Assembly (NCBI GenBank): GCA_009844885.1
Contig: VYAQ01000044.1
Coordinates: forward strand, 1 to 64,000
DNA: 64,000 nt
Source: Gemmatimonadota bacterium
GTDB taxonomy: Bacteria; Gemmatimonadota; Gemmatimonadetes; Longimicrobiales; Gaopeijiaceae
Reading direction: 5' to 3'
Positions within the stretch are counted from its first letter, which is position 1. Each line of letters starts with the position of its first letter. Under the pieces are notes generated by a model. That model searched no databases, was not told the DNA's origin, and saw only the letters and a program-made list of their open reading frames with translations. The position numbers were made by a program, and so were the translations under genes. This document shows, in pieces, positions 14,077 to 24,833 of the stretch.

Positions 14077-14093
14077 GGTGGCGGGGGCGTGTG
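14077..14093 (+). repeat. attL-type 17-bp direct repeat
   Basis: ggtggcgggggcgtgtg, identical to 24735-24751. Confidence 0.9.
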
Positions 14094-14254
14094 TCCCTCT
14101 TTCTGGTGTTTCTGGCGGTTTCAGTGTGTCTCGTAACGTTCGGTGATGGCTGGCGTTAGGTCCGTTCTGCTGTCCCTTGCGGTTTCCGGTTGTTTCACCC
14201 ATTTTCAGACAGAAAGTGATAACGACAGGGATAACTGCAACAAGAGCGACCCCG

Positions 14255-15421
14255 ATGAAGCGCCCGCGAATCCTGAACGCATCCTTCGTTCGGACCGTGA
14301 CACGGCCGGGCCGGTACGGCGATGGCCGGGGGGGACACGGGCTGTCCATGCTGGTGAAGCCCATGTCCAACGGCCGACTGTCGAAGTCTTGGGCTCAAAG
14401 GCTACGGATCAACGGGAAGCCCGTCAACATCGGGCTTGGAGCGTTTCCTGTCGTCACGCTCGCCGAGGCGCGCCAGAAGGCGCTCGACAATCGACGGACG
14501 GTTGCCCAGGGGGGTGATCCCCGCGGGGGCGGCATGCCCACCTTCGCCCAGGCCACCGAGAAGGTGATCGCGCTGCACGCCAAGGGCTGGAAGGGACACG
14601 TCAGCGAACGCCAGTGGCGAAACTCGCTCGCGACCTATGCCTTCCCGCACATCGGCCGGAAGCGGGTAGACAAGATCATGACTGCCGACGTGATGCGCGT
14701 CCTGCTGGCTGACGACCTCTGGAACACGAAGCGCGAGACCGCGAGGCGCGTCCGCCAGCGGATCGGCGCTGTGATGAAGTGGGCCGTCGCTCAAGGCTAC
14801 CGGGAGGACAACCCGGCAGGTGACGCAATCGGCGCGGCGCTCCCCAGGAACGGCAACCGGAAGGAACACTTCCGGTCCCTTCCCCATTCCGAGGTTGCCG
14901 AGGCGCTGGCGAAGGTGCGCGGGTCGGGTGCGTGGATCGGGACGAAGCTCGCAATCGAGTTTCTGGTCCTCACGGCAACCCGGCCGGGCGAGACACGGTT
15001 GGCGACGTGGGACGAAATCGATCTCGACGCGGCGACTTGGACGATCCCGCCGGACCGCATGAAGGCTGGGCGAGCACACCGGGTGCCGCTGTCACGGCGG
15101 GCGCTCGAAGTGCTCACCGAGGCGCTGGAGATTCGGAACGATACCGACCTGCTGTTCCCTTCGGTCACGGGCAAGGCGGCGGCCAACGTGACCTATACGA
15201 AGCTGCTTCGCGAGTTGGAGATCCCGGCGGTGTCGCACGGCTTCCGGTCCAGCTTCCGTGTCTGGTGCGGAGACACGGGTGTTGACCGCGAGGTGGCCGA
15301 GCGGGCGCTGGCGCATACCGTCCGAAACCCGGTTGAAGCCGCATACAACCGGGGTACGCTGTTCGAGCGGCGGCGGGAAGTCATGCGAGCCTGGGGCCGG
15401 TACATCGCGCCGATAGGGTGA
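14255..15421 (+). CDS. int: P4-type tyrosine recombinase/integrase with DUF4102-type arm-binding domain
   Basis: SKSWAQRLRINGKPVNIGLGAFPVVTLAEARQKA arm domain; TATRPGETRLATWDEID, HGFRSSFRVW (HxxR) and AYNRG catalytic motifs. Confidence 0.93.
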   Translation: MKRPRILNASFVRTVTRPGRYGDGRGGHGLSMLVKPMSNGRLSKSWAQRLRINGKPVNIGLGAFPVVTLAEARQKALDNRRTVAQGGDPRGGGMPTFAQATEKVIALHAKGWKGHVSERQWRNSLATYAFPHIGRKRVDKIMTADVMRVLLADDLWNTKRETARRVRQRIGAVMKWAVAQGYREDNPAGDAIGAALPRNGNRKEHFRSLPHSEVAEALAKVRGSGAWIGTKLAIEFLVLTATRPGETRLATWDEIDLDAATWTIPPDRMKAGRAHRVPLSRRALEVLTEALEIRNDTDLLFPSVTGKAAANVTYTKLLRELEIPAVSHGFRSSFRVWCGDTGVDREVAERALAHTVRNPVEAAYNRGTLFERRREVMRAWGRYIAPIG

Positions 15422-15541
15422 ACGGCGGAGGCGTTGGGGGGAGTTACGTCACCTCGAAGGGGCGGTTTCGGCTTCGCCGCCACTCGACGGAGTGTAAAGC
15501 AAACCTTACTCCATGTCGCCTTTACTTGACCTGCGTAGGGG

Positions 15542-15579
15542 GTGTTTTTTGGCCAACCTCAAAAAACACGCGTGTTTTT
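15542..15579. promoter_or_regulatory. Overlapping inverted repeats between int and alpA
   Basis: gtgtttttt (15542-15550) pairs with aaaaaacac (15561-15569); the latter also forms perfect 18-bp palindrome AAAAACACGCGTGTTTTT (15562-15579). Confidence 0.7.
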
Positions 15580-15685
15580 GTAAAACATTGAAAAATATGG
15601 TACTTGCAGAAACTTGACTCGTGACCTTGCCGGTCGTTTCCTTCCTGTTGCGTGCGACAACAACCCGCAATGTTCGGGGGGGACA

Positions 15686-15871
15686 ATGGCAGACAGAATC
15701 TTGCGCCCGCGGGCGGTTTGCGACCGGCTCAGCATCTCGCGAACGACACTCTGGAGAAAGCAGAAGGACGGCGACTTTCCACCTGCCCTGCGGCTTGGTC
15801 CAAACAGTATCGGCTGGAGGGAGTCCACCATCCAGGAATGGCTCGACTCGCGGTCCGAGGCGGCGGCGTGA
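15686..15871 (+). CDS. alpA: AlpA-family helix-turn-helix regulator/excisionase
   Basis: MADRILRPRAVCDRLSISRTTLWRKQKDGDFPPALRLGPNSIGWRESTIQEWL. Confidence 0.9.
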   Translation: MADRILRPRAVCDRLSISRTTLWRKQKDGDFPPALRLGPNSIGWRESTIQEWLDSRSEAAA

Positions 15872-16755
15872 AGACGGTTTACGGTACTAGTACCGCAAAA
15901 TCGTTCGATCCGTCCAGAAAGCGGTGGCCGAACTCCTGGCTGGAGGCATTGGACGACCACTTGCTGGACCTCTTGGCCGAGGACTGGCCGCAATCCATCC
16001 GCCACTGCTTCTACCGGATGACCGACCCGCGCTTGCCCGTCTACGTTCCCAAGACGGAGCACGGATACCGGCGTATCCAACGCCGCCTGACGCTACTCAG
16101 GCGTGCGGGGCGCTTGTCGTACTCTCGGCTCGTTGACACTACCCGGGCGGGCCATCACGTGCCCACCTACGGGGGCGCTGGCGACTTCCTGGAGCGCGTG
16201 GCCGGGCTCTATCGGCACAACCTCTGGGAGAACGCCGACACTCACGTGGAAGTCTGGTGTGAGTCCGCGTCCATCGCGGGGGTACTCCGCGGCACTTGCC
16301 AGGAACTGGCCGTGTCCCTCTACCCGACCCGCGGCTTCTCCTCGCTGACGCTGGCCTATGAGGCCGCTGAGGAGATCAACGAAGCGGGGCGGGTGCGTGC
16401 TGTCGTGCTCTACGTGGGCGACTACGACCCGGCCGGGGTGCTGATCGACCAGGCGGTTGAGATGGAGTTGCAGGGGCATCTGCACGTCCCGCTTGAGATG
16501 CGGCGGCTGGCAATCAACGAGAACCAGATTACCGAGTACGACCTTCCGGCGAAACCGAGGAAGGAAAGCGAGCGCAGACGTCCAGACGTGAAGGAGACCG
16601 TTGAGGCCGAAGCCATGCCCGCGGGTATCCTTCGCCGCATGGTGCGGAACGCAGTCGAGGAGTACCTACCCGCCAACGCGCTGTTGGCCGCGAAGGAAGC
16701 CGAGGCGTCCGAACGGGCGGTACTGAGGGCAATAGCAGGAGAGTTAGCAGCGTGA
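15868..16755 (+). CDS. TOPRIM-fold (Spo11/TopoVI-A-like) protein of unknown function
   Basis: GTG start overlapping alpA stop; SIRHCFYRMTDPRLPVYVPKTEHGYRRIQRRL...VEVWCESASIAGVL...VLYVGDYDPAGVLID (E...DxD TOPRIM-like motifs). Confidence 0.65.
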   Translation: MKTVYGTSTAKSFDPSRKRWPNSWLEALDDHLLDLLAEDWPQSIRHCFYRMTDPRLPVYVPKTEHGYRRIQRRLTLLRRAGRLSYSRLVDTTRAGHHVPTYGGAGDFLERVAGLYRHNLWENADTHVEVWCESASIAGVLRGTCQELAVSLYPTRGFSSLTLAYEAAEEINEAGRVRAVVLYVGDYDPAGVLIDQAVEMELQGHLHVPLEMRRLAINENQITEYDLPAKPRKESERRRPDVKETVEAEAMPAGILRRMVRNAVEEYLPANALLAAKEAEASERAVLRAIAGELAA

Positions 16756-17042
16756 ACTTGGAGGATGCCATCGACTAGCTCTCGCCACCATACGGAGTCC
16801 GGTTAGGGTCGTGCTGCGATAGTTGGCCGGGCGCTTGCAATGAAGGCTGCCACCAATCAACGGGCCGCACGGGCAGTGGGGGGAACCCCTCCAGGCAGCC
16901 ACCGACGCCGAAGTGCTGAACGGGGAGGGTGTCCGGACACTGGTGACCGGGCTTTGCAGCAAGCCGATCCGCAAATGCCAGTGAAGGCGGGATCGGTACC
17001 CCGACAGCGACCGGGCGGCTCCGGCCGAGGGACAGCGTTGTC

Positions 17043-17104
17043 GAAGGGGTAGAGGCCGAACCCGAGGGTTGACTCACCCTCGGGGGGTCCACCTTTACCC
17101 CTTC
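17043..17104 (+). other. Nested stem-loop upstream of terL
   Basis: Outer arms gaaggggtagagg/cctttaccccttc (13 bp incl. one G-U) and inner arms cccgagggt/accctcggg (9 bp, loop tgactc). Confidence 0.7.
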
Positions 17105-17138
17105 ACTCCCAGGCTCACCAACCGAGGGAGTTGGCGGA

Positions 17139-17172
17139 GCACTACCAATAGGTATGCACTACCAATAGGTAT
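17139..17172 (+). repeat. Perfect 17-bp tandem duplication, operator-like
   Basis: gcactaccaataggtat x2; each unit contains inverted repeat TACC-AATA-GGTA. Confidence 0.85.
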
Positions 17173-17217
17173 CTTCAGTCTCAAGCCAAGCCGTACGAAC
17201 TCGACTCCGGGAGGAGA

Positions 17218-17436
17218 ATGAACACCGTGGAAGCGATCGACGCAGGACACAAAATGGCCGATGTGCTACTCGAATGGCGGCCGGATATTCGCGAGAGTTA
17301 CGAGGACGCAGCCAGTGCGATCATGCACACCATGGAGCGCTACTCAATCGAAAGCGAGGGTGCAAGCGAGGGCGGAATGCAGGCGCTGTTCAGCGCGCTG
17401 GAACGCAAGATGAAGGAAAGGTGGATGTCATTCTGA
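17218..17436 (+). CDS. Small hypothetical satellite protein (72 aa)
   Basis: ATG preceded by strong RBS gggaggaga; MNTVEAIDAGHKMADVLLEWRPDIRESYEDAASAIMHTMERY. Confidence 0.65.
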   Translation: MNTVEAIDAGHKMADVLLEWRPDIRESYEDAASAIMHTMERYSIESEGASEGGMQALFSALERKMKERWMSF

Positions 17437-17500
17437 ATCCCGATGGCACCGCCGACGGCCGAACGGGGGCCGTGGAGCGTTGGGGGTAGGCACGAAATCC

Positions 17501-19003
17501 ATGAATGGCGCGTCTGACCTGCTGGCGTACCTGGGCGGGCTGACCGTCTCCCAGGGGCGGTTGGCCGGGGAGCGGTTGCGGGTGTTCCCGTGGGAGCGGC
17601 GCTTCGTCCGTGGGGCCTTCAAGCCGGAAGTCCAGTCGGCCGCGCTAAGTGTGGCGAGGGCGAACGGGAAGACGACGCTAACCGCCGGGATCGCAGCCGC
17701 GACGCTGGACGGGCCGCTTGCCGTTCCGCGAGGGGAGACGGTGTTGGTGGCTTCGAGTTTCGAGCAGGCCCGGATCGCGTTCGAGCACATTGTGGCGTTC
17801 ATGGGCGACAAGCTGCGGGACCGGGCGCGGTGGAGGGTATGGGACACGGCACAACAGGCTCGGGTGGAGGACCGCGAGACTGGTGCTCGGGTGCGGTGTA
17901 TCGGGAGCGATCCCAGGCGGGCGCATGGTCTGGCTCCGTCGCTGGTGCTGGCGGATGAGCCCGCACAGTGGCCTAACTCGACGGGGGAGCGGATGGTGGC
18001 GGCGCTGCGGACGGCGGCGGGCAAGCAGCCACACAGCCGCTTCGTGGCCCTCGGGACGCGCCCGGCCGGGTCTGAGCACTGGTTCGCGAAGATGCTGGCC
18101 GGGGGCGCGGACTATGCTCAATCGCACGCGGCGCGGGAGAATGACCCGTCCTTCTGGCGGCGGACCTGGAAGCGGGCGAACCCGAGTCTGGACCACCTTC
18201 CCGACCTGGAGGCGGCGATCCGGGCCGAGGCCGCCCAGGCGAAGCGCGATCCCGCGCTCCTGGCCGCGTTCGAGGCGCTGAGGCTCAACAAGGGGACCGA
18301 CGATACCGAGGTCGCGGTCCTGCTCGATGCGGCGCTGTGGGCGTCCATCGAGGGGGAGGCCGCGCTGGAGGGTCCGGTGGTGTGGGGCGTGGACCTGGGC
18401 ACTTCGGCGGCACAGTCGGCCGTGGCGGCCTACTGGCCCGAGACGGGGGCGCTGGAGTGTCTGGCGGCGTTCCCTTGCCAGCCGTCGCTTGATGTGCGCG
18501 GACGGCGTGACGGCGTGGCGGGGCTGTACCGGGAGTGCGCCAAGCGTGGCGAACTGCTGACGCTCGGACAGCGGGCGGTGGACGTGTCGGCTCTGCTCGG
18601 GGAGGCTCGCAAGCGGTTCGGGAGGCCGTCGCGGGTGGTGGCGGACCGCTGGCGCGAGGCCGAGCTACGTGACGCGCTGGAGAAGGCTGGCGTCCCGCCA
18701 GCGGCGTTCGAGGTCCGAGGGATGGGCTTCGCGGACGGTGGGGCGGACGTTCGGGCGTTCCGGCGCGCTTGTGCGGAGGGCCGGGTAACTCCTGCGCCGT
18801 CGCTGCTGTTGCGCTCGGCCATGAGCGAGGCCAGGACGATCAGCGACCCGGCGGGCAACGCCAAGCTGTCGAAGTCCACCCAGGGCGGGCGGCGTCTTCG
18901 AGCTCGAGACGACGCGGCGGCGGCCGCCGTGCTGGCGGTGGCGGCGGGAGTCCGGCAACCAGCAAAGTCGAAAGCGCGTTGGCGCTACCGGGGCGCGGCG
19001 TGA
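17501..19003 (+). CDS. terL: Phage terminase large subunit (TerL)
   Basis: FPWERRFVRGAF, Walker A-like SVARANGKTT, Walker B SLVLADEPAQW, nuclease-region VVWGVDLGTSAAQSAVAAYW. Confidence 0.9.
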   Translation: MNGASDLLAYLGGLTVSQGRLAGERLRVFPWERRFVRGAFKPEVQSAALSVARANGKTTLTAGIAAATLDGPLAVPRGETVLVASSFEQARIAFEHIVAFMGDKLRDRARWRVWDTAQQARVEDRETGARVRCIGSDPRRAHGLAPSLVLADEPAQWPNSTGERMVAALRTAAGKQPHSRFVALGTRPAGSEHWFAKMLAGGADYAQSHAARENDPSFWRRTWKRANPSLDHLPDLEAAIRAEAAQAKRDPALLAAFEALRLNKGTDDTEVAVLLDAALWASIEGEAALEGPVVWGVDLGTSAAQSAVAAYWPETGALECLAAFPCQPSLDVRGRRDGVAGLYRECAKRGELLTLGQRAVDVSALLGEARKRFGRPSRVVADRWREAELRDALEKAGVPPAAFEVRGMGFADGGADVRAFRRACAEGRVTPAPSLLLRSAMSEARTISDPAGNAKLSKSTQGGRRLRARDDAAAAAVLAVAAGVRQPAKSKARWRYRGAA

Positions 19004-19500
19004 GGCCCTTGCACCTTTTCGGGGATTGGTCGCGGGAAGGCAATGCGAGCCTCTTTCAGGCGGCGCTGTTCCGCGAGAACTAAAAGCATGCGTAGGTTTT
19101 CTTCCCCGTCAGGTACACCTACGCCGAGCGCGAGTAGCTTGGACGCGGTTCTTGCCCTGTGCGACAAATCACTTAGTCCCACACGGGCAATGGGATCGCG
19201 ACGCCTCTGTCTGGTTAGCTCCTGGATGTCGGGCACGAGGCGTCGGAAGCGTTCGCTCGGGCGCCGAGGTGCATACCACCGCCATCCACCTGTCACGCTC
19301 AGTATCAGTCCGATGACGGTGCAGACTAGTGCGACCAACGGGAGCGGAGCCCCGACACCGGGCCAGTGTTCGACGACAGTGGTGCGCACCTGCATGAAAT
19401 CCAGCAGATAGCCCAAGCCGAGGACCAGCAAGGTGATACCTCTGGCCCATCCGCCAAGGCTGGTGACGAAGTCAATGGCACGGGACGTCGCGGTGCTCAT
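18985..19500 (-). CDS. Hypothetical 2-TM membrane protein (reverse-oriented insert in satellite)
   Basis: ARGITLLVLGLGYLLDFM and PLPLVALVCTVIGLILSVTGGW TM segments, then charged cytoplasmic-like region. Confidence 0.6.
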   Translation of the reverse strand: MSTATSRAIDFVTSLGGWARGITLLVLGLGYLLDFMQVRTTVVEHWPGVGAPLPLVALVCTVIGLILSVTGGWRWYAPRRPSERFRRLVPDIQELTRQRRRDPIARVGLSDLSHRARTASKLLALGVGVPDGEENLRMLLVLAEQRRLKEARIAFPRPIPEKVQGPHAAPR

Positions 19501-19522
19501 CCTCCAACTTAGCGTCACTTCA

Positions 19523-19804
19523 ATGAGTCGTCATCACGATAAGCACCTTCCTGCCCGCCGTTGGTTGCACGTCCGGCGCGCCGTGCTGGACGCCGCGAAC
19601 TGGCGCTGCTCGACGTGCGGGCAGTACGGGAACGAGGTGGACCACATCGTGCCGCTCCACCGTGGCGGCGATCCGTGGTCGCTCGACAACCTCCAGGTGC
19701 TCTGCCGAGGCTGTCACATCCAGAAGACTGCCGCCGAGAACCGCCGCGAACCGACGCCAGCGGAGGCGGCTTGGCGGGCGCTGGTGGACGAACTGAGCCC
19801 GTAA
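19523..19804 (+). CDS. HNH endonuclease
   Basis: LDAANWRCSTCGQYGNEVDHIVPLHRGGDPWSLDNLQVLCRGCHIQKT (HNH with Cys pairs). Confidence 0.92.
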   Translation: MSRHHDKHLPARRWLHVRRAVLDAANWRCSTCGQYGNEVDHIVPLHRGGDPWSLDNLQVLCRGCHIQKTAAENRREPTPAEAAWRALVDELSP

Positions 19805-19907
19805 GAAACCCCCTGAAACCGATTGCAACAAGATCAAGCGGGACAGCGATTTGTGGATCTCGCACATGGTGTTATGCTCCCCCGGCAATCGTCTTCAAGG
19901 GGGAACC

Positions 19908-21170
19908 ATGACCAACGCACAGAGAATCCGGCTGCGCCTGTCCCAGGTCCGCCAGCGGCTGAACGAGATTGCGGGGCTGGAGGGCGAGGACTTCACCGAC
20001 GAGATCCGGTCCGAGGCCGAGACCCTCCAGACCGAGTACGCGGACCTCGAAACCCGCCACCAGGCCGCCATCGTGGCCGAAGACGAGGGGGAGACTCGTG
20101 AAGCCGCACCCGATGCCGAGATGCGGGAGCGGATCGAACTTCGCAGCCGCGCCAGTCTCGGCAACTACCTGGTCGCCGCCCTACGGGGCCGCCGGGTGGA
20201 TGGTGCGGAAGCCGAGCTACAGACCGCCGCAGGGATCGGGGACGGCATCCCGCTGGAACTGTGGGACGTGCCGACGGAGACTCGGGAGGACGCGGCGACG
20301 GGCGCACCGGGTTCGGTGGGGGTGAACCTGGACCGGATTCGTCCGGCCGTGTTCGCGAACTCGGTCGCGCCCAGGCTCGGTATCGAGATGCCGCGCGTGG
20401 CGAGCGGCACCTACGCCAGCGCGACGATCACCACGTCGCTCACCGCGGGCTCGAAGGCCAAGGGCGAGGCCCAGGAGTCCACCCCGGCCGCGTTCACCGT
20501 ATCGAGCGTGACACCGAAGCGGATCAGCGCCCGGCTCGGTATCCGCATCGAGGACGTGGCGGCGGTCGGACAGGCCAACTTCGAGGCCGTGCTGCGAGAG
20601 AACCTGTCCCTGGTGCTCTCCGACGAACTGGACGACCAGGCGATCAACGGGGCGGGTGGCAACGCGGGGGCCGACTTGAAGGGCATCTTCAACGCGCTCA
20701 CCGATCCGAACGCGCCCGGCGCAGGGGTGGCGAAGTTTGATGACTTCGTGAACGCCTATGCGGGTGGGATCGACGGGCTGTGGGCGTCCCGGATGAACGA
20801 GGTAGCCATCGTATGCGGTCCCGAGACCTACCGGTTGAGCGCGAAGGCGTTCCGTGACGTGGGCAGCAACACCGGCCACCGGGGCGACATTGCGTTCGCC
20901 GACTACGCGATGAAGCACACCGCGGGCTGGTGGACCAACAAGCGGATGCCGAACAAGGCGAACCACATCCAGCAGGCGATCCTCCACCGGAAGGGCCGCA
21001 CGGGGCTGCGCACGGCTGTGTGTCCGCACTGGAACGAGATCAGTATCGACGACATCTACTCGGGCAGCGCTCGGGGTGAGCGGTACTTCACGATGCACGT
21101 TCTCTTGGGCGACGTGATCCTGGTCCAGCCGAGCGCCTACGCCCAGGTAGCGTTTCGAGTCAGCACCTGA
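19908..21170 (+). CDS. HK97-type major capsid protein with N-terminal delta/scaffold-like region
   Basis: N-terminal coiled region then TPKRISARLGIRIEDVAAV...ENLSLVLSDELDDQAINGAGG...LKGIFNAL; HK97 MCP features. Confidence 0.87.
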   Translation: MTNAQRIRLRLSQVRQRLNEIAGLEGEDFTDEIRSEAETLQTEYADLETRHQAAIVAEDEGETREAAPDAEMRERIELRSRASLGNYLVAALRGRRVDGAEAELQTAAGIGDGIPLELWDVPTETREDAATGAPGSVGVNLDRIRPAVFANSVAPRLGIEMPRVASGTYASATITTSLTAGSKAKGEAQESTPAAFTVSSVTPKRISARLGIRIEDVAAVGQANFEAVLRENLSLVLSDELDDQAINGAGGNAGADLKGIFNALTDPNAPGAGVAKFDDFVNAYAGGIDGLWASRMNEVAIVCGPETYRLSAKAFRDVGSNTGHRGDIAFADYAMKHTAGWWTNKRMPNKANHIQQAILHRKGRTGLRTAVCPHWNEISIDDIYSGSARGERYFTMHVLLGDVILVQPSAYAQVAFRVST

Positions 21171-22015
21171 TGGATGCCCGCCGCCTGGTGACCGGGGCGG
21201 CTGAGATACGGGCCGCCGAAGATGGGCCGCACCTTCACGGTGTGCTGATCCAGGAGGGCCGTGCTGCGAGCGGAGGCCGCCGGGAGGTGTTCGCGCCCGG
21301 TTCCGTCGAGTGGCCGTCTACGGGCGTTGGTATCCTCACCGCGCACCGTACAGCGCCCGAGGTCCGGGCCATGCCGTCGCGCCGGTCCGATGGGCGCATC
21401 ATGGTCAGGACACCGGCAACGGAAGCGATCCGGGAAGCCGTCGAGGGCGGGCGGCGGTTCATGAGCGTGGAGTTTCACGCGCTCCGGGAACGCACGACGC
21501 GGGGCGGGGTCCGGGAGGTGCTGCGGGCCTTCGTGCCGGATGCCGCACTCGTTGCCAATCCCGAGTACGACACGACGGCCGCCGAGGTGCGCCGCCGTCT
21601 CGGTGGAGTCAAGGCCCGTGTCCCGACCGGCAAGGCGGTGGATTGCCGATGCGGTCCCGCAGCCTGCGAGACGGCGACAATCGACCCGGGCGGCCTGGAG
21701 ATCCCGGACGATGCCCCGGCTTTCCTGGGCGACTTCAAGCAGCCGCTCGCGGCCGCCACTTCCGAGGTGAGGGATGGTGTCGTCACGGTGGCCGCGGAGG
21801 TCCGGGACACGTCCTGGGGCCGGGATCTTGTCGAGGCCGGAACGGATCACCTGATCGTGCGTCCGTACCCCGACCCCATGAAATCGGAGTGGGAGGTGCG
21901 CGGCACCGACCGGCTCTTTACGCGGCTGAGCGTGGCCGCGTGGATCTTCTCATGGACCGACCAGACCGGCGGCTTCGAAGAAGCCGAGCTTGAGCGGAGG
22001 CGGCTGTGGCTGTGA
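21170..22015 (+). CDS. HK97-family (S78) prohead protease with C-terminal extension
   Basis: VGILTAHRTAPEV (His) and RRFMSVEFHALRE (Ser) motifs; adjacent to MCP (TGATG overlap). Confidence 0.82.
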   Translation: MDARRLVTGAAEIRAAEDGPHLHGVLIQEGRAASGGRREVFAPGSVEWPSTGVGILTAHRTAPEVRAMPSRRSDGRIMVRTPATEAIREAVEGGRRFMSVEFHALRERTTRGGVREVLRAFVPDAALVANPEYDTTAAEVRRRLGGVKARVPTGKAVDCRCGPAACETATIDPGGLEIPDDAPAFLGDFKQPLAAATSEVRDGVVTVAAEVRDTSWGRDLVEAGTDHLIVRPYPDPMKSEWEVRGTDRLFTRLSVAAWIFSWTDQTGGFEEAELERRRLWL

Positions 22016-22317
22016 CGGTGGACGCGGCGACTGTTGTAGCGGCCGCGCAAGTGAGCGAGGACCAAGCGGCCCGACTGCTCGCGGTCGCGACCACCCTGGT
22101 AGAGCGGTACGCACCGAACGCGCCCGAGGCGATCCAGAATGAGGCGGTGATCCGGGTGGCGGGTTGGCTCGGACAGACCCCGGCGGGGAGCTTCACCAGG
22201 GTGCAGACCGGGCCACGTGAGACCGAGTACGCGCCTGGGCAGAAGGGGGCGCTGCGTCACAGCGGGGCCATGTCCCTGCTCGCACCCTGGAAGGTGCGGC
22301 GGGGGGGAGCGATCTAA
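22006..22317 (+). CDS. Head-tail connector (gp6-like)
   Basis: DQAARLLAVATTLVERYAPNAPEAIQNEAVIRVAGWL; located between protease and portal. Confidence 0.72.
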   Translation: MAVTVDAATVVAAAQVSEDQAARLLAVATTLVERYAPNAPEAIQNEAVIRVAGWLGQTPAGSFTRVQTGPRETEYAPGQKGALRHSGAMSLLAPWKVRRGGAI

Positions 22318-23369
22318 TGCGCTGGCCGTGGCGGAAGCGAGAGACCCGCGACTCGGGCGGCGACTTCACCGACGCCGTCGTGCGGCTTATCGAGGCCCAG
22401 GCGGCCGGGAAGGCTGCCGACGCCTCCAGCACTGCCGCCGTGGAGGCCGCCAGCGGGGCGCTTAGCCGTGCGTTCGCCTCGGCCCGGGTGGAAGGGCCGC
22501 CGCACGTCCTGGAGGCCGTCACGCCCTCCGTACTGGCCCAGGTGGGCCGCGATCTGGTTCGGTCGGGGGACTCCATGCACGTCATCGACGTGGACCGCTC
22601 GGGGCGGGTGACGCTGCTCCCGTGCTCGAGCTGGCACTTCGAGGGCGACGCACACCCGCGCACCTGGACCGTGAGGGCGACCTACTACGGGCCGTCCACG
22701 TCCACGACACGGCATCTTCCCTTCTCGGGAGTGGTCTTCGTGACATGGGGATCGACGCCGGGCCAACCCTACGTCGGGATCGGGCCTACGTCCTGGGCAC
22801 ACACGACCGCGCGGCTCCAGTCCGAGACTGAGCGGTCCCTGGCCGACGAATCCGCAGGCCCGGTCGCACAACTCCTCGCTATCCCGCAGGACGGCGGCGG
22901 CGGCGAGGAAGACCCGCTCGCGCTGCTCAAGGCGGATCTCCGCACCGCCCGGGGCAAGGCACTGCTCGTTGAGACGACCGCCACGGGATGGGGCGACGGG
23001 AGGAGCGCGGCACCGCAACGTGACTGGCACGCTTCAAGGCTCGGACCCGCGCCGCCCGAGTCCATGGCCCGGGTCCGCACGGACGCCTTCAACGCCGTCC
23101 TGGCGGCAACAGGAACGCCTCCGAGCCTGTTTATGGACTCGGACGGGACCGCACAGCGTGAAGCCGTCCGGCGCTGGCACCTCGGGACCGTGCTCCCCCT
23201 GGCGGGACTCCTGGAGGCCGAACTGACGGCCAAGCTGGAGGCCGACGTGCGGCTCGCCTTCGACAGCTACCCGCTCGACCTCGCAGGACGCGCCCAGGCG
23301 TTCCAGAAGCTCGTTGCCGGGGGCGTGTCCGTGAGCGAGGCACTGGCGACCTCGGGGCTGCTCTCGTGA
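22317..23369 (+). CDS. Phage portal protein
   Basis: VGRDLVRSGDSMHVIDVDRSGRVTLLPCSSW...GTPPSLFMDSDGTAQREAVRRWHLGTVLPLAGLLEAELTAKL. Confidence 0.85.
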   Translation: MRWPWRKRETRDSGGDFTDAVVRLIEAQAAGKAADASSTAAVEAASGALSRAFASARVEGPPHVLEAVTPSVLAQVGRDLVRSGDSMHVIDVDRSGRVTLLPCSSWHFEGDAHPRTWTVRATYYGPSTSTTRHLPFSGVVFVTWGSTPGQPYVGIGPTSWAHTTARLQSETERSLADESAGPVAQLLAIPQDGGGGEEDPLALLKADLRTARGKALLVETTATGWGDGRSAAPQRDWHASRLGPAPPESMARVRTDAFNAVLAATGTPPSLFMDSDGTAQREAVRRWHLGTVLPLAGLLEAELTAKLEADVRLAFDSYPLDLAGRAQAFQKLVAGGVSVSEALATSGLLS

Positions 23370-23575
23370 ACTGGAGACCAGGCAAGCCGGACCCCGAGAT
23401 GAGGGCGATCCGGGATCGGATCAGAACCGCGGTGCGGACGCTAAAGGCGGCGGGCGTGCGGGTCGACCCCGAACTCGTATTGGCTGGTGCGGGCCTCGAC
23501 CTGCACGCGAAGCGCGACGAGTTGGTGCCGATGATCCGAACGATTGCCGAGGACCTGGTGGTCGATGCGGGTTAG
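23366..23575 (+). CDS. Small hypothetical satellite protein (69 aa)
   Basis: GTGA overlap with portal stop; acidic/basic helical protein. Confidence 0.55.
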   Translation: MNWRPGKPDPEMRAIRDRIRTAVRTLKAAGVRVDPELVLAGAGLDLHAKRDELVPMIRTIAEDLVVDAG

Positions 23576-23588
23576 GCCAGCGAGAGGA

Positions 23589-23777
23589 CTAGGTCGCTGG
23601 AATCGAACAGCGCGCGAATAGTTCCCCTTGGCCCTTGACCGTCTCCTTCTGCCGCCGGGATTCGTGATGTTTGGCCCATCGGGTCGGTCCATCGAGACGT
23701 TCCGACACTCGAATGATGACCGTGCCATCTGACCGGCGTTCTTCCTTCCATCCGTCGTTCGGTTCTTTCCCGCTCAT
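23589..23777 (-). CDS. Small hypothetical protein (62 aa), partner of serine protease
   Basis: ATGA overlap with upstream protease gene; MSGKEPNDGWKEERRSDGTVIIRVSERLDGPTRW. Confidence 0.6.
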   Translation of the reverse strand: MSGKEPNDGWKEERRSDGTVIIRVSERLDGPTRWAKHHESRRQKETVKGQGELFARCSIPAT

Positions 23778-24529
23778 CGTTTTCCTCCTTGGCTGTCCAA
23801 CCCCGCGTTCTCGATCATGTCTCGGCATCGAGCTAGCGGCGAAACCGTCGCCAATCCTGTCGTTCCGTACACTCCCATTACTATCCCGAACACCTTGCCG
23901 CTCGCAACTTCAATGACTCCTCCTCCACTGTTTCCCGGGTTGACGGGCATCTGAATGGTGTAGCTGTCCCGCAGAGCAGCTGCAGCTACGGGATGCGGGA
24001 TCACGGCGCTAACAGGTCCCTGCAGGAAGGTGCTGATGACCGTCTTTCCTTTGTACAGCTTGATCCCGTGTGGCCAGCCACAAGTTACCACCTGGTCCCC
24101 CTCTTGAGGTGCCAAGTCATAGCCTACCGCCATCTGGCGAGACGGGAATCCTCCCCTCTCGATTGACACGACCGCCACATCGTACTGCTGGTTTTCGAGA
24201 CTCTGTGTGATAGCGGTAACGGCATACGACAGTTCCACTTCTTGTCGGCTACTCGTGGCCGAATCCACGGTGAACACCGCGGCTGTTCCCTTCTCGGTCT
24301 TGGCTTCTTTTCGGAGACCTTCGAGGACGTGCGCTGCGGTTAGGATCACCCGCGGCCTCTTGATGGCAATACCTGTCCCGACAATGACGGGTTCCCGCTT
24401 ATCGGGAGGTGGCCAGAAGAGGCCGAAGCCGACCGTAGCCAACCGAATGTCCTCAAACATCTTTCTGCGCTTCTCACGGTGGCGCGCAGATCCATCCGGA
24501 GCCTGCTTTCGTTTGCTTGCCCGTCCCAT
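23774..24529 (-). CDS. Trypsin-like serine protease (S1 family)
   Basis: VGTGIAIKRPRVILTAAHVL (His), YDVAVVSI (Asp), MPVNPGNSGGGVI (Ser) catalytic triad motifs. Confidence 0.88.
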   Translation of the reverse strand: MGRASKRKQAPDGSARHREKRRKMFEDIRLATVGFGLFWPPPDKREPVIVGTGIAIKRPRVILTAAHVLEGLRKEAKTEKGTAAVFTVDSATSSRQEVELSYAVTAITQSLENQQYDVAVVSIERGGFPSRQMAVGYDLAPQEGDQVVTCGWPHGIKLYKGKTVISTFLQGPVSAVIPHPVAAAALRDSYTIQMPVNPGNSGGGVIEVASGKVFGIVMGVYGTTGLATVSPLARCRDMIENAGLDSQGGKR

Positions 24530-24594
24530 TTTCTCCGTTTCGTACCCCCACGGGGACCGCGGGGATGACAGTCGAACGTAGGAGGCATCAACGA

Positions 24595-24622
24595 CTTGTA
24601 GTACCTCTAAGGGTACTACAAG
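24595..24622. promoter_or_regulatory. 11-bp inverted repeat upstream of serine protease gene
   Basis: cttgtagtacc-tctaag-ggtactacaag, perfect arms. Confidence 0.75.
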
Positions 24623-24734
24623 GCGCCGAGGTCACCAAACCCCTGTGGGTTTGCAGGCATGTTACATATTCATAGTGATAACCAATATTATTGCGTACTG
24701 ATAAAGCATTATCATGATTAGAGTTAAGCACTCC

Positions 24735-24751
24735 GGTGGCGGGGGCGTGTG
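24735..24751 (+). repeat. attR-type 17-bp direct repeat (3' end of tRNA-Sec)
   Basis: ggtggcgggggcgtgtg, identical to 14077-14093. Confidence 0.9.
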
Positions 24752-24833
24752 GGAATCGAACCCACCCACCCGGGTCTTAGCCGGGCGCACTGGTTTTGAA
24801 GACCAGACGGAACACCAGTCCCGATCCGCCCCC
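24737..24833 (-). tRNA. selC: tRNA-Sec (UCA)
   Basis: 97 nt; GGGGGCGG acceptor, CTGG-TCTTCAAAA-CCAG anticodon arm (TCA), long variable arm GCGCCCGGCTAAGACCCGGGTGG, GGTTCGATTCC, encoded GCCA. Confidence 0.95.

Follow-up and report, generated by a model that had tools for sequence, protein, structure and literature searches.

An integrated 10.7-kb element with its own capsid and packaging genes is probably a tail-borrowing phage satellite of a separate lineage

We analyzed the first 64,000 nucleotides (hereafter the window) of contig VYAQ01000044.1 from a Gemmatimonadota bacterium, in which positions 14077–24751 hold a complete mobile element of ~10.7 kb, integrated at a tRNA-Sec gene. We consider this element to be an intact, integrated capsid-forming phage satellite (probability approximately 0.78), which would make and fill its own head and, as we infer, depend on a helper phage for its tail. 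It appears to work like a capsid-forming phage-inducible chromosomal island (cf-PICI) yet to stand outside the cf-PICI lineage, as judged from its gene order, the lack of a recognized terminase small subunit (TerS) or primase, and the clade of its terminase large subunit (TerL). The original prediction, made from the sequence alone, was of a cf-PICI-like satellite; this remains the best supported explanation, given the recurrence of the tail-less module in relatives, but for the same three reasons it does not extend to membership of the cf-PICI lineage.

The ends of the element are marked by a perfect 17-bp direct repeat, GGTGGCGGGGGCGTGTG, at 14077–14093 and 24735–24751, which is the sole long perfect repeat linking both ends. 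In a Markov-resampled null for the same two zones, a match of at least 17 bp arose in 1 of 300 runs, and the repeat taken by itself is suggestive of attachment (att) sites. The repeat search and ARAGORN together placed the right copy (attR) over the 3′ end of the tRNA-Sec gene (24737–24833, minus strand), the integration target; tyrosine integrases classically insert at the 3′ end of a tRNA gene. In four sibling genomes (G016, G033, G036, and G037), tRNA-Sec is found between the two flanking genes of the element, namely the diacylglycerol-kinase-like gene of the left flank, which is close by, and the acyltransferase gene of the right. The uninterrupted site of G016 reads ...GGGCGCGGTGGCGGGGGCGTGTGGGAATCGAACCC..., with one 17-bp core between the same two flanking genes in place of the identical left (attL) and right copies, and the size of the element equals 10,658 bp plus one core. 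The att boundaries are firm because the right copy is the tRNA-Sec 3′ end and G016 retains a single-copy empty site, and the bounds originally predicted proved exact.

The plus strand encodes, in order, an integrase, AlpA, a TOPRIM protein, a 72-aa open reading frame (ORF), TerL, an HNH endonuclease, the capsid protein, a protease, an adaptor, the portal, and a small ORF; a trypsin-like protease gene lies on the minus strand, adjoining the tRNA. PHROG and Pfam searches bore out the predicted integrase, AlpA, TOPRIM, TerL, HNH, capsid, connector, and portal genes. TerL (17501–19003; phrog_9, 3e-53), an assignment also supported by its tree, contains the Walker A/B motifs of the ATPase and the acidic motifs of the nuclease (ANGKT, LVLADE, VDLG, VADRW, and RARDD). 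The HNH endonuclease (19523–19804, within a longer ORF beginning at 19433) is of the packaging cofactor type, matching PF01844 (7e-10) and phrog_589 (1.6e-19) with an intact CxxC-DHI-CxxCH motif. The HK97-fold major capsid protein (MCP; 19908–21170) bears an N-terminal extension and matched phrog_10 (1.7e-7) and, just under the cut-off, PF05065 (9.4e-5); its family profile matches the solved major capsid protein 8eck. The Ad1-like head–tail adaptor (22006–22317; phrog_477, 9e-4) is conserved in relatives, and the portal (22317–23369) matched PF04860 under the cut-off (1.1e-6), the nearest solved structure to its family profile being the RcGTA portal 6te8 (1e-6). The gene at 21170–22015 was assigned to an HK97-family prohead protease that bears an additional C-terminal domain; this is the weakest assignment by hidden Markov model (HMM) alone, as the single sequence had no HMM match. 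A nine-member profile, when aligned by hhalign with the annotated HK97-family protease of the cf-PICI in Escherichia coli EDL933, gave a probability of 95% (E=3e-8, 142 columns), bearing out the predicted protease. Its sequence contains the His motif and the Ser motif MSVEF, and the fold predicted by AlphaFold (pLDDT 73) resembles the protease of the herpesvirus Epstein-Barr virus with probability 0.99, though E=0.03. The small ORF overlapping the portal stop (23366–23575) has a counterpart of 36% similarity at the matching position in one relative (L022). Against the closest relative, L018, ratios of nonsynonymous to synonymous substitution (dN/dS) were 0.15 (portal), 0.17 (adaptor), and 0.16 (capsid gene, C-terminal part), which indicates purifying selection on the three genes. 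With catalytic motifs present and dN/dS low in the genes compared, the reading frames are as intact as originally described.

Upstream, the tyrosine recombinase (14255–15421) matched phrog_1 (7e-54) and, above cut-off, PF22022, PF00589, and PF13356, with catalytic R/H/R and candidate Tyr motifs. It is followed by an AlpA-family excisionase/regulator (15614–15871; PF05930, 2.7e-15; phrog_2790, 5.5e-11), the true start of which may be an internal ATG at 15686. The TOPRIM protein (15838–16755; phrog_6247 DNA topoisomerase, 1.9e-38) has a presumed role in replication or topology; its relatives in viral contigs are 51–58% identical, and a fold search returned the T7 primase TOPRIM domain (probability 0.94, E=0.07) and nothing decisive. 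The 72-aa ORF upstream of terL (17218–17436) lies in a position that suits TerS, has no PHROG or Pfam match or similarity, and is not conserved in relatives, being unique to the tRNA-Sec element. In the same searches no ORF tested from the element matched tail, lysis, or primase-helicase families, in line with the original prediction, and no unassigned gap has room for a tape measure gene. There was no PHROG or Pfam match to TerS besides HNH-domain ones, nor any conserved extra gene across relatives; a cryptic TerS is possible.

To follow the gene set through related genomes, we searched for the capsid protein in 126 genomes of the host's family, finding relatives in 11. The block TerL–HNH–capsid–protease–adaptor–portal recurs in the relatives, with host genes on its flanks where the contig extends far enough; L021 is an exception in order, with TerL and HNH placed after the portal. 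Beyond these six genes, no gene is conserved across the relative set. When genome contigs were scanned with TerL, L015 (64% identical) turned up in a metagenome-assembled genome (MAG) of Rhodospirillaceae, which carries three such elements (L015, L047, and L048), and L051 lies in a further alphaproteobacterium. Ends were located for three relatives: repeats of 47 and 46 bp, each in its own tRNA-Lys gene, enclose L015 (9.7 kb) and L047 (10.2 kb), respectively, and the boundaries of L016 are formed by an imperfect repeat, with exact in-register blocks of 15 and 18 bp, where a peptidase gene ends. Portal-profile matches among 399 genomes of the phylum occurred only in the host's family; the MCP profile over the whole family was nowhere conserved enough to scan a collection with. 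The nearest relatives vary by gene: L097 for TerL (74%), L018 for the capsid (86%, partial), L018 and L074 for the portal (83% and 67%), L022 and L017 for the protease (~52%), L100 for the integrase (52%), and L083 for TOPRIM (53%), which reads as a pattern of module exchange, including across phyla. A SusC protein in the window matched Gemmatirosa plasmids at 43%, with the next organism in the plasmid collection at 25%, and together with the gene content points to a probable Gemmatimonadota host; a glycosyl-hydrolase query gave no lead on the host. The predicted placement in a different host lineage is supported to that extent, but the family also occurs in Alphaproteobacteria. A second, divergent portal of the family is present in the element's own genome (L044:867-1889, on contig C344 of G000, 3.6 kb), in which a further family element may be present but unassembled. 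Decayed members were also seen, with the portal and adaptor left in L043:9817-11147 (G033) and a portal fragment in L046:8243-8446 (G024).

Scanning IMG/VR with portal and TerL profiles gave 21 relative contigs of 4.4–17.3 kb, the doubtful L108 and L113 being left out of the count. In a rough control with canonical TerL, about 17 of 80 IMG/VR contigs exceeded 17.3 kb; contigs in this collection are often fragments, and their size is supporting evidence only. The strong argument is what the complete circles encode. Six contigs (L074, L075, L078, L079, L105, and L110) carry terminal repeats whose length is exactly 55, 99, or 127 bp and are taken to be circular because these sizes are typical of assembler k-mers on circles. 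In L075 and L079, joining the ends makes an HNH or TerL gene whole again, and in L105 TerL is split over both contig ends. The circular relatives, of ~9–14 kb, carry maintenance or replication genes, namely a ParA-like gene in L075 (by sequence motif), a Rep-like gene in L079, a Replicase/PriCT gene in L105, and a primase-helicase in L074; none of these four, which were annotated, has a recognized tail gene. In two circles (L079:3514-5340 and L105:3484-5775) and one fragment (L103:5019-6269), the adaptor is fused to an extension of 300–670 residues with no Pfam or convincing PHROG match, nor, for L105, any phage match; the extension may form a fibre-like structure or bind receptors at the portal vertex. 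L074:10010-13631 contains a transposase (phrog_7951, 2e-179) and a resolvase/invertase, suggesting a transposon inside a satellite plasmid.

Among 50,697 phage records, the capsid and portal had no match, and TerL matched HK97-type TerLs at no more than 27% identity; the TerL of L020, scanned against phages, had none. In the TerL tree, 16 family members fell on one side of a branch of length 1.2 with 100/100 support, and HK97-type phages, the EDL933 cf-PICI, and L083 on the other. Its phages came from among the matches of the window TerL itself, which makes the comparison fair to the rival placement; cf-PICI-type sequences made up only two rows. By gene content, the EDL933 island (1680329-1694760) is probably EcCIEDL933. 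Alignment of the capsid and adaptor with those of this island by hhalign gave nothing, an absence that is weak evidence, as a profile was set against a single sequence. L083:4152-14363, on an IMG/VR contig, is itself a ~10-kb cf-PICI-like island in canonical order (int, helix-turn-helix gene, TOPRIM, MCP, protease, portal, HNH, P27-like TerS, and TerL); because it pairs this order with a TOPRIM 53% identical to that of the window, the early modules appear common to both kinds of satellite.

The source of the tail was sought in the host and its genus. On contig 40 of G016 (L119 and L120) lie the terminase, portal, tape measure, tip, neck, and endolysin genes of a tailed phage or prophage, and G016 also bears a family member, so that this phage is a candidate helper type and helpers in the genus are plausible. 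Among the relatives, several have genes for adaptor, head-closure, or neck proteins but none for a tube or tip, which supports a borrowed tail, as such proteins would be needed by a head that is to receive its tail from outside. Pfam models PF10145 (tape measure), PF13550 (Phage-tail_3), and PF04984 (sheath) matched nothing in 23 genus genomes, a weak negative, since PF10145 missed the real tape measure of G016. Several observations weigh against a tail-borrowing satellite. No helper was identified in the host genome, and the G016 tape measure is absent from this and the other genus genomes. No excised form of the tRNA-Sec element was observed, and neither TerS nor a dedicated replicase was recognized in it. 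The family is not wholly tail-free: L019:15056-16675, in the same genus, has next to its head genes one for a tape-measure-like protein of 539 aa (phrog_2276, 1e-7), an integrase not being seen in the vicinity, and L020 has a tail-terminator-like gene.

In the mechanism we propose, integrase and AlpA would excise the element upon infection by a helper phage or its induction, and the excised circle would be copied with host or helper aid, the TOPRIM protein probably contributing. The capsid protein, protease, and portal would assemble a small head, and TerL with HNH would cut and pack the ~10.7-kb unit. The adaptor would close the head, a helper tail would then join, and the particle would inject its DNA, the integrase inserting the element at the next tRNA-Sec.

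The strongest competitor, although an improbable one, is a self-sufficient tail-less virus or capsid-borne plasmid lineage, delivering DNA, for example, through a minimal portal–adaptor vertex with receptor-binding parts. Such a virus would need no helper prophage, and none was recognized in the host genome; plasmid-type maintenance and replication genes in the circles and the extended adaptors of L079, L103, and L105 also fit. The window adaptor, however, is of the short kind and has no receptor-binding candidate near it, neck and head-closure proteins, which normally join tails, persist in several relatives, and helpers of other satellites can be lytic phages that are missing from genomes (PMC10803314). 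A related proposal, which we rate slightly lower still, is that the six-gene module is an old, separate HK97-type tail-less lineage that crosses phyla without a helper tail, in some members with receptor-binding adaptor fusions. That the element is a diverged member of the established cf-PICI lineage is very unlikely: the two have int, AlpA, TerL, HNH, capsid, protease, portal, and connector in common, and the TOPRIM is common to canonical-order L083, but the gene order differs, no TerS was recognized, the TerL clade stands apart with full support, and the capsid and adaptor could not be aligned in the profile-to-single-sequence comparison. A tail-deleted, decaying prophage remnant, the main alternative of the original prediction, is suggested by head and packaging genes without a tail and by the decayed L043 and L046, but is rejected, as the att repeats at the exact ends and the motifs are intact, dN/dS is low, no parent phage was matched, and the same tail-less content recurs in many independently inserted and circular relatives. 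Equally remote is a domesticated particle system serving the host, akin to a gene transfer agent (GTA), to which the resemblance of the portal to that of RcGTA would point, against the patchy occurrence of the element (11 of the 126 family genomes have a capsid relative), its possession of an integrase and att sites, the empty site in siblings, and the tails that known GTAs possess.

Three features were absent from the original prediction, namely the tRNA-Sec target, a cargo gene, and a possible membrane-protein ORF. The probable cargo is the trypsin-like protease (23774–24529, minus strand; PF13365, 3e-15), which has catalytic triad motifs and resembles the PADLOC protease components PDC-M35A (3e-10) and RT-Protease_XI (8e-10), a resemblance that makes an anti-phage function possible. 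In the terL–HNH gap, a tentative 177-aa ORF (18985–19518, minus strand) with a weak coding score, hydrophobic stretches, and no family match is a possible accessory membrane protein.

Satellites with capsids and no tails are an established kind (PMC10690885; PMC13230959). According to PMC10690885, cf-PICIs have genes for capsid, protease, portal, connectors, TerS, TerL, and HNH, and use helper tails; PMC10803314 gives their mean size as 14 kb and their hosts as chiefly Enterobacteriaceae, Pasteurella, Morganellaceae, Lactobacilli, Enterococci, Bacillaceae, and Streptococci. Their capsids form three radiations (PMC11389934). Like the EDL933 cf-PICI, the window element is integrated and has int, an AlpA-type regulator, capsid, protease, portal, connector, HNH, and TerL, without tail genes. 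It differs in order (TerL–HNH–MCP–protease–adaptor–portal); the EDL933 island places the capsid genes first and TerL last, as MCP–protease–portal–head closure–connector–HNH–TerS (P27)–TerL, with a DUF927 protein upstream. It also differs in the lack of recognizable TerS, head closure, and primase, in its separate TerL clade and host phylum, and in size (10.7 kb versus the 14-kb mean; PMC10803314).

Episomal satellite-plasmids of Vibrio (cf-PISPs, such as TG54), described in 2026 (PMC13230959), are circular, plasmid-maintained, and equipped with a capsid but no tail, and L074, L075, L079, and L105 are analogous to them. Against the cf-PISP definition of a ParA/RepA circle without integrase, the circular relatives fit; the window element is integrated and had no Par/Rep match. 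Unlike this family, cf-PISPs keep the cf-PICI gene order, their capsid nests with gammaproteobacterial cf-PICIs, and they are known only from Vibrio (PMC13230959). Compared by gene set rather than homology, MulchRoom and MiniFlayer of Streptomyces phages also have their own terminase, portal, capsid, and adaptor, MulchRoom with an integrase and no tail genes as well, but differ in their scaffold, TerS, terminal repeats, virulent helpers, and Actinomycetota hosts (PMC10690885). HK97-type tailed phages share the HK97-fold capsid, HK97-family prohead protease, HK97-type TerL, and HNH, but are distant in TerL, unmatched in capsid and portal, and possess full tails and lysis genes.

We found no description of such elements from Gemmatimonadota in the openly accessible papers that were searched, and the family is apparently an undescribed, distinct lineage of tail-less elements in at least two bacterial phyla. 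It would widen the hosts of capsid-making satellites to probable Gemmatimonadota and Alphaproteobacteria, from the Enterobacteriaceae-related bacteria, Bacillota (PMC10803314), Vibrio, and Streptomyces reported earlier. It would probably escape tools that rely on profiles of known cf-PICIs, as PHROG and Pfam models barely see its capsid and portal. If tail-borrowing is true, capsid-making satellites arose more often than has been counted, and a six-gene head kit suffices. Taken together, these comparisons suggest that the same strategy is followed by a lineage standing apart, which has a capsid clade and gene order of its own and a minimal set of genes and is carried on both islands and plasmids.

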